Assembly (NCBI RefSeq): GCF_003074135.1
Contig: NZ_PPDK01000001.1
Coordinates: 930,001 to 994,000 of the forward strand
Length of the DNA: 64,000 nucleotides
Reading direction: 5' to 3'
DNA from: Euzebya tangerina
Lineage (GTDB): Bacteria > Actinomycetota > Nitriliruptoria > Euzebyales > Euzebyaceae
Part shown: one piece after another, positions 62,869 through 64,000 of the stretch
Position numbering within the stretch: position 1 is the stretch's first letter
Layout of the letters: each line of letters starts with the position of its first letter
Position numbers and translations under genes: made by a program
The notes under the pieces: model-generated
What the model saw: the letters and a program-made list of their open reading frames with translations, nothing else
Databases searched by the model: none
Told to the model about the DNA's origin: nothing

Positions 62869-63852
62869 TCAGCGGCCCCCCGCCTGACGGTGATCGAGGT
62901 AGGACACGGCGAGGACGTGTGGGAACGTGACGGCTGCCGTGACCTGGAGCGCCAGCGCCGCGAGGTCGACCGGTGACCAGGATGGGGCAACACGTAGCGC
63001 CAATCCGAGCGCCCCGACTGCGATCAGCGTCGGAGGGATGGCATCCCGGACGAATCGCCGGAACGAGGCCGCGGCTCCGTGTTCCAGCCACACAATCCGG
63101 TACGGGGGCTCCTCGGTCAGCATGCGTGCGATGTGACGGGGCGCGTGCCACAGACCGAAGTAGACGGCGAAGGCCCAGACCGGCGGAGCCACGACGAAGA
63201 GTGCGCCGACCAGCAGCAGGTCCACGACGGCGTGGTAGCGCCGCGCCATCGACTCGACGACCACTGCCGCCGCCAGAACGACTGTCGTGCTCCAACCGAC
63301 CGTCGCCACGACCGGTGGTTGCAGCAGGAAGACTAAATCCGGACTGAGTTCCGCAGCCAGCGGTCGCAGTTCGGAGGCCCCGAAGACCATGAGGCCAGCA
63401 ATGGGGATCAGACCCGCCGCGGCGCCATGCAGCCGGGACGGGCGTCGTCGGCCCGCAGAGAGAGAGACCCTGTCAGCAGTCCCGAAGTGCCAAGCCGAGA
63501 TGAGCAGGAAGGCGGGCCAGACGATGCCGGGGAAGAGGCCCGCGGCGACAAAGACCCCGATGGCCAGGAGGGCGTAGCAGAGCGTGCCGACGCCGATGCC
63601 CAGCCACCCGCCAATTCTGCGGGCTAGCAGGACGTGGTCGACGGCCCCGTGCGGGAGCCCCGCGATGAGCGCGACTGAGAGAGGTAGGAGGGACATGCCA
63701 CCAAGCCAGCCAGCAGCGGCAAACACAATGGCAGCGGCCAGGAGCAGCCGGGTCCAGCGCTGCGTCACTGATTCGCCGGTCCAAGGCAAAGCCGGACCTC
63801 CCCCTGCCACAGTGGGCTGCAGGGGGGAGGTGGTTTGGGAGCTCGTCCGCAC
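62869..63852 (-). CDS. blh: Brp/Blh-family beta-carotene 15,15'-dioxygenase
   Basis: A 327-residue membrane protein with about seven helices and the histidine-rich Blh motifs: GLPHGAVDH, SAWHFGTADR, VYFGLWHAPRHI and TFPHVLAVSYLDHRQ. The histidines hold the iron that cleaves beta-carotene into two retinal molecules. It starts at GTG 63852, 16 bp after the stop of the partial rhodopsin gene, so they form an operon. It also supplies retinal for the heliorhodopsin at 26823-27650. Confidence 0.95.
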   Translation of the reverse strand: MRTSSQTTSPLQPTVAGGGPALPWTGESVTQRWTRLLLAAAIVFAAAGWLGGMSLLPLSVALIAGLPHGAVDHVLLARRIGGWLGIGVGTLCYALLAIGVFVAAGLFPGIVWPAFLLISAWHFGTADRVSLSAGRRRPSRLHGAAAGLIPIAGLMVFGASELRPLAAELSPDLVFLLQPPVVATVGWSTTVVLAAAVVVESMARRYHAVVDLLLVGALFVVAPPVWAFAVYFGLWHAPRHIARMLTEEPPYRIVWLEHGAAASFRRFVRDAIPPTLIAVGALGLALRVAPSWSPVDLAALALQVTAAVTFPHVLAVSYLDHRQAGGR

Positions 63853-63868
63853 GAGGACCGTGGTGCGC

Positions 63869-64000
63869 CTAGGGAGCCGTCACACGGACAGACTCTCCGT
63901 CGGTCAAGTCGACCTCGCCCGCTTCGATCAACTCGGCGGTCTTGACCAACGCGATCTGCGCGATGAGCACACCGAACAGCGCCTTGGCGAGTATGTCGGC
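63869..64000 (-). CDS. Type-1 microbial rhodopsin, C-terminal end (cut by window edge)
   Basis: Reading inward from base 64000 on the minus strand, 43 codons end at TAG (63869-63871). The peptide begins ADILAKALFGVLIAQIALV, the pattern of the seventh helix of xanthorhodopsin/actinorhodopsin-type proton pumps, with the Schiff-base lysine at codon 6 (63983-63985). The tail is acidic. The 16-bp gap to blh is typical of rhodopsin-blh operons. The rest of the gene lies outside the window, so pump type cannot be read. Confidence 0.75.
   Translation of the reverse strand, partial: ADILAKALFGVLIAQIALVKTAELIEAGEVDLTDGESVRVTAP

Follow-up and report, generated by a model that had tools for sequence, protein, structure and literature searches.

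At the right edge of the 64 000-nucleotide stretch of Euzebya tangerina DNA analysed here (the window, positions 930001–994000 of contig 1) lie two neighbouring genes on the same strand, blh and the 3' end of a rhodopsin gene (table 1). The Blh reading frame scored 145 bits against TIGR03753 (cut-off 95) and 122 bits against PF15461 (cut-off 28), with E-values of about 1e-35 to 1e-42 that exclude a chance match, and a search of the genome found it in single copy. Its histidines fall in the motifs GLPHG..DH (H68, H73), WHFG..D (H122), LWHAPRH (H236, H240) and FPH (H311), which, together with the profile scores, bears out the intact blh gene of the original prediction. Most of them are found again in the Blh of another genome of the phylum, G208, despite an identity of only 28%; H73 is a tyrosine there, and the region of H240 is shifted in the alignment.

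Table 1. Features of the rhodopsin–blh locus and the second rhodopsin gene. Coordinates are in window numbering unless a contig is given.
Feature	Position	Strand	Basis or remark
blh, beta-carotene 15,15'-dioxygenase, Brp/Blh family, 327 aa from first GTG	62869..63852	-	TIGR03753, PF15461
G+C-rich inverted repeat ACCTCCCCCCTGC...GCAGGGGGAGGT, without T-run	63796..63831	-	read from sequence, folded
Gap, rhodopsin stop to first blh GTG, 16 bp	63853..63868	-	
Rhodopsin 3' end, XR/GR-type, 43 codons + stop	63869..64000	-	PF01036, 124 bits
Complete rhodopsin gene	contig 1: 993869-994687; 63869 to 64678 or 64687	-	
Second rhodopsin, approx. 270 residues	contig 1: 165617-166438		minus strand, outside the window; divergent from proS

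It had been proposed from the window alone that the 43 codons closing a frame at its edge belong to a rhodopsin lying beyond it, and this proved correct. The tail, which contains ADILAKALFGVLI, continues past base 64000 into a complete type-1 rhodopsin. The likelier start codon is the GTG at 64678, 8 nt after an AAGGAG, rather than the one at 64687. The product of approximately 270 residues matches the Bac_rhodopsin profile and has the Asp-Thr-Glu (DTE) motif of helix C and the Schiff-base lysine; neither of the findings that were to count against a rhodopsin was made. The best PDB matches include psXR (3e-80), gloeorhodopsin (GR; 3e-78), xanthorhodopsin (XR; 3e-72) and 9hfk, and the protein is 50–55% identical to these four. 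Single-sequence AlphaFold models were of low confidence (pLDDT about 50).

The short distance between the two genes depends on where blh begins. The 16 bp originally noted hold for the first GTG, while an alternative in-frame start, the GTG at 63768, would widen the gap to approximately 100 bp. As annotated, the blh frame has the inverted repeat inside its first 20 codons, so translation may begin at this second GTG instead of the one at 63852. The stretch holding the repeat folds with a z-score of -1.56, a stability that is not significant, and the repeat is possibly a leaky terminator, a processing site or a product of chance. Placed between the rhodopsin and blh, it could end some transcripts, which counts against a single unit. 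From the gene order and spacing, we infer that rhodopsin and blh are carried on one transcript.

In an alignment numbered on XR, the rhodopsin has the helix-C triad Asp96, Thr100 and Glu107, His62 in helix B, Arg93, Asp236 in helix G, the Schiff-base Lys240, and Gly156 in helix E. A DTE motif that includes a carboxylate donor marks outward proton pumps (PMC4585134, PMC9728251). The alignment also shows that, of the 3-omega motif, the Tyr in helix A and the Phe in helix B are kept and that the aromatic residue of the B–C loop is missing; actinorhodopsins likewise keep two of the three omega aromatics, yet count as omega rhodopsins (PMC9728251). In phylogenetic trees, the protein groups with XR, GR, psXR, 9hfk and the G208 rhodopsin, apart from the clade of NDQ and NTQ proteins (100/100), while its sister within the XR clade is an open fork. 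On the strength of these residues and relatives, it is predicted to pump H+ outward, as a member of the XR/GR clade (omega class). A previously studied rhodopsin from an actinobacterium, which likewise combines DTE with the helix-E glycine, is a proton pump supplied with retinal by Blh (PMC8113403).

The rhodopsin–blh pairing put forward in the original prediction is supported by two intact genes next to each other on the same strand, one encoding the pump residues and the other the histidine motifs to be expected. Rhodopsin and blh very probably form a two-gene light-energy unit, composed of an XR/GR-clade outward H+ pump and a retinal-making enzyme. In the proposed mechanism, Blh would split beta-carotene into two retinals for the DTE rhodopsin, and probably for the second rhodopsin as well. 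The retinal would be bound to the helix-G lysine; when light is absorbed, the Schiff base proton would pass to the helix-C Asp, which pairs with the conserved His, and the helix-C Glu would reprotonate the Schiff base from the inside, with H+ leaving the cell.

The genome encodes a plausible supply of the substrate. A crtB gene is found on contig 4 (at 106011), in a cluster with a type-2 IPP isomerase, crtI and a polyprenyl synthase (crtE), the last three named by reading their translations rather than by profile. A CrtY/L-type lycopene cyclase (crtY, PF05834, 171 bits) is found on contig 1 (at 265893), and a search of the genome for a CrtYc/d-type cyclase found none. As crtE, crtI, crtB and crtY are all present, beta-carotene would plausibly be made by the products of the first three on contig 4 and of crtY on contig 1, and Blh is predicted, by its family and motifs, to act on it.

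A histidine kinase (HisKA_3/HATPase) and a NarL-type response regulator lie directly upstream of the rhodopsin gene on the same strand (approx. 64894–66980 in window numbering), an arrangement that might be expected if the rhodopsin were a light sensor partnering these proteins and not an energy-giving pump. We regard this as very unlikely, given that the full DTE triad is kept, cytoplasmic donor Glu included, and that the nearest relatives of the protein are pumps. Moreover, ATPase and H-box domains are present in the kinase itself, which bears no mark of a rhodopsin transducer, and the regulator and rhodopsin genes are approximately 200 bp apart. Some regulatory link between the kinase/regulator pair and the rhodopsin is possible. 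In the congeners, the best match to the kinase reaches 46%, short of a clear ortholog.

Rhodopsins were sought in three congeners and one other member of the family, and none was found. The lack of a rhodopsin in the three congeners indicates that light use was either gained by E. tangerina or lost by the others; synteny with the congeners is uninformative on gain versus loss, with a clear nearby ortholog only for the neighbouring endonuclease. The same absence, a G+C content of 62% in the rhodopsin gene against 69% around it, and flanking genes that are non-syntenic in the congeners could alternatively point to an assembly or contamination artefact foreign to this genome. Such an origin is improbable in the extreme: the unit sits within a 3.4-Mb contig, the composition of blh and the flanks is normal, the GC3 of the rhodopsin gene (0.83) is similar to that of its neighbours, and recent gain or repeated loss accounts for the patchy distribution. 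As a genuine part of the genome, the light-energy unit would add self-sufficient retinal phototrophy to a lineage whose three examined congeners have no rhodopsin.

The proton-pump reading could be refined, without being opposed, if the protein were an antenna-assisted xanthorhodopsin in which a bound carotenoid adds blue-green light. It has a glycine at the position of XR Gly156 and Kin4B8 Gly153 and retains the Thr and Tyr of the pocket. In XR and Kin4B8, this glycine borders the opening by which salinixanthin or hydroxylated xanthophylls reach the retinal (PMC13093654), and in the E. tangerina protein the helix-E glycine would leave a gap where a carotenoid could serve as antenna. Class relatives have DTE rhodopsins with Trp at this position, which sets the edge rhodopsin apart from its neighbours' pumps and aligns it with the XR/GR set; the contrast between its antenna glycine and their Trp is one reason for interest in the protein. 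However, the NaR and ClR proteins of the alignment also have Gly156, so the residue is insufficient for an antenna, and a profile search of the genome for a CrtZ-type hydroxylase (PF04116) yielded no match. We put the chance of a carotenoid antenna at slightly below even. Rhodopsins of the NDQ (sodium-pump) type were observed in many genomes of the same order and class (L022, L024, L025, L026, L028, L031, L033), several of which also have a DTE proton pump with Trp at the antenna position.

The second rhodopsin of the genome has a Ser-Thr-Gln (STQ) triad in helix C (RYISWLITIPLLLVQ). By alignment, it has the XR-type His62 and a Gln at the position of XR Glu141, with the Asp, Lys and Arg in place. 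A fusion of this rhodopsin to a long upstream open frame was considered and rejected, since that frame is antisense to proS. In two trees, the protein branches below all sampled NDQ (Na+) and NTQ (Cl-) proteins (96/94 and 96/90), a basal placement that is only tentative because of long branches; a clade of the STQ protein and NmClR alone received a p-AU of 0.08, which speaks against it without rejecting it. Within the phylum, the closest proteins are of the NDQ (sodium-pump) type and share no more than 43% identity with the STQ rhodopsin, and a plasmid search gave remote matches only. The STQ motif pattern was validated on the gene itself before the collection was scanned. No other genome matched among 84 980 species, in a scan that had no positive control and of a collection that possibly leaves out the E. 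tangerina genome; a scan across the class matched this genome only, and a literature search found no mention of an STQ motif with rhodopsin.

The D85S mutant of bacteriorhodopsin is a chloride pump (PMC4585134). In NmClR, Cl- is bound via Asn98 and Thr102, and replacement of Asn98 by Ala, Asp or Leu is harmful, Ser not being among the mutants listed (PMC4999514). Chloride pumping by D85S and the Cl- site of NmClR make an anion pump the natural guess for the STQ rhodopsin. A bolder reading, which we hold to be somewhat less likely than not, is that retinal made by Blh also feeds the STQ rhodopsin, that this protein, set apart by its triad and retained XR-type His, represents an unreported omega class, most likely an anion pump by analogy with D85S, and that the cell pairs H+ and anion pumps. 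If functional, the protein would sample an intermediate between H+ pumps and Na+/Cl- pumps, and this analysis came across no natural representative of it. As a predicted anion pump, it is a more interesting lead than the rhodopsin–blh pair.

The rhodopsin–blh pair is a further example of a well-known type of two-gene unit. The closest match to the DTE rhodopsin in 396 genomes from the phylum is that of G208 (53% identical), where a lycopene cyclase, blh, a B12-binding MerR-like regulator (CarH-like by reading) and the XR rhodopsin adjoin (L057:3463-7398), a neighbourhood hinting that rhodopsin expression is under light control. A plasmid search with the DTE pump yielded a Polymorphobacter protein at 46% and a remote match in Frondihabitans. 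The pump shares DTE, His62, Gly156 and Lys240 with gloeorhodopsin (6nwd), psXR (9wfa) and Salinibacter xanthorhodopsin (3ddl), matching them at 50–53% identity over nearly the full length, but differs from all three in that the Tyr of the B–C loop, the third 3-omega aromatic, is replaced and the pocket Met211 is a Val. It resembles the actinorhodopsins found with blh (e.g. ActR-13023, PMC8113403) in its DTE motif, antenna glycine and two of the three omega aromatics and, as in the ActR-13023 case, Blh is encoded in the same cell as a retinal source. The beta-cyclase is of the CrtY/L type (PF05834), unlike the CrtYc/Yd type of the rhodopsin-bearing actinobacteria described previously (PMC7734400). 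As in marine proteorhodopsin–blh operons (PMC7734400), the rhodopsin gene shares a unit with blh; unlike in those operons, the rhodopsin is of the XR branch and the crt genes are found at other genomic locations.
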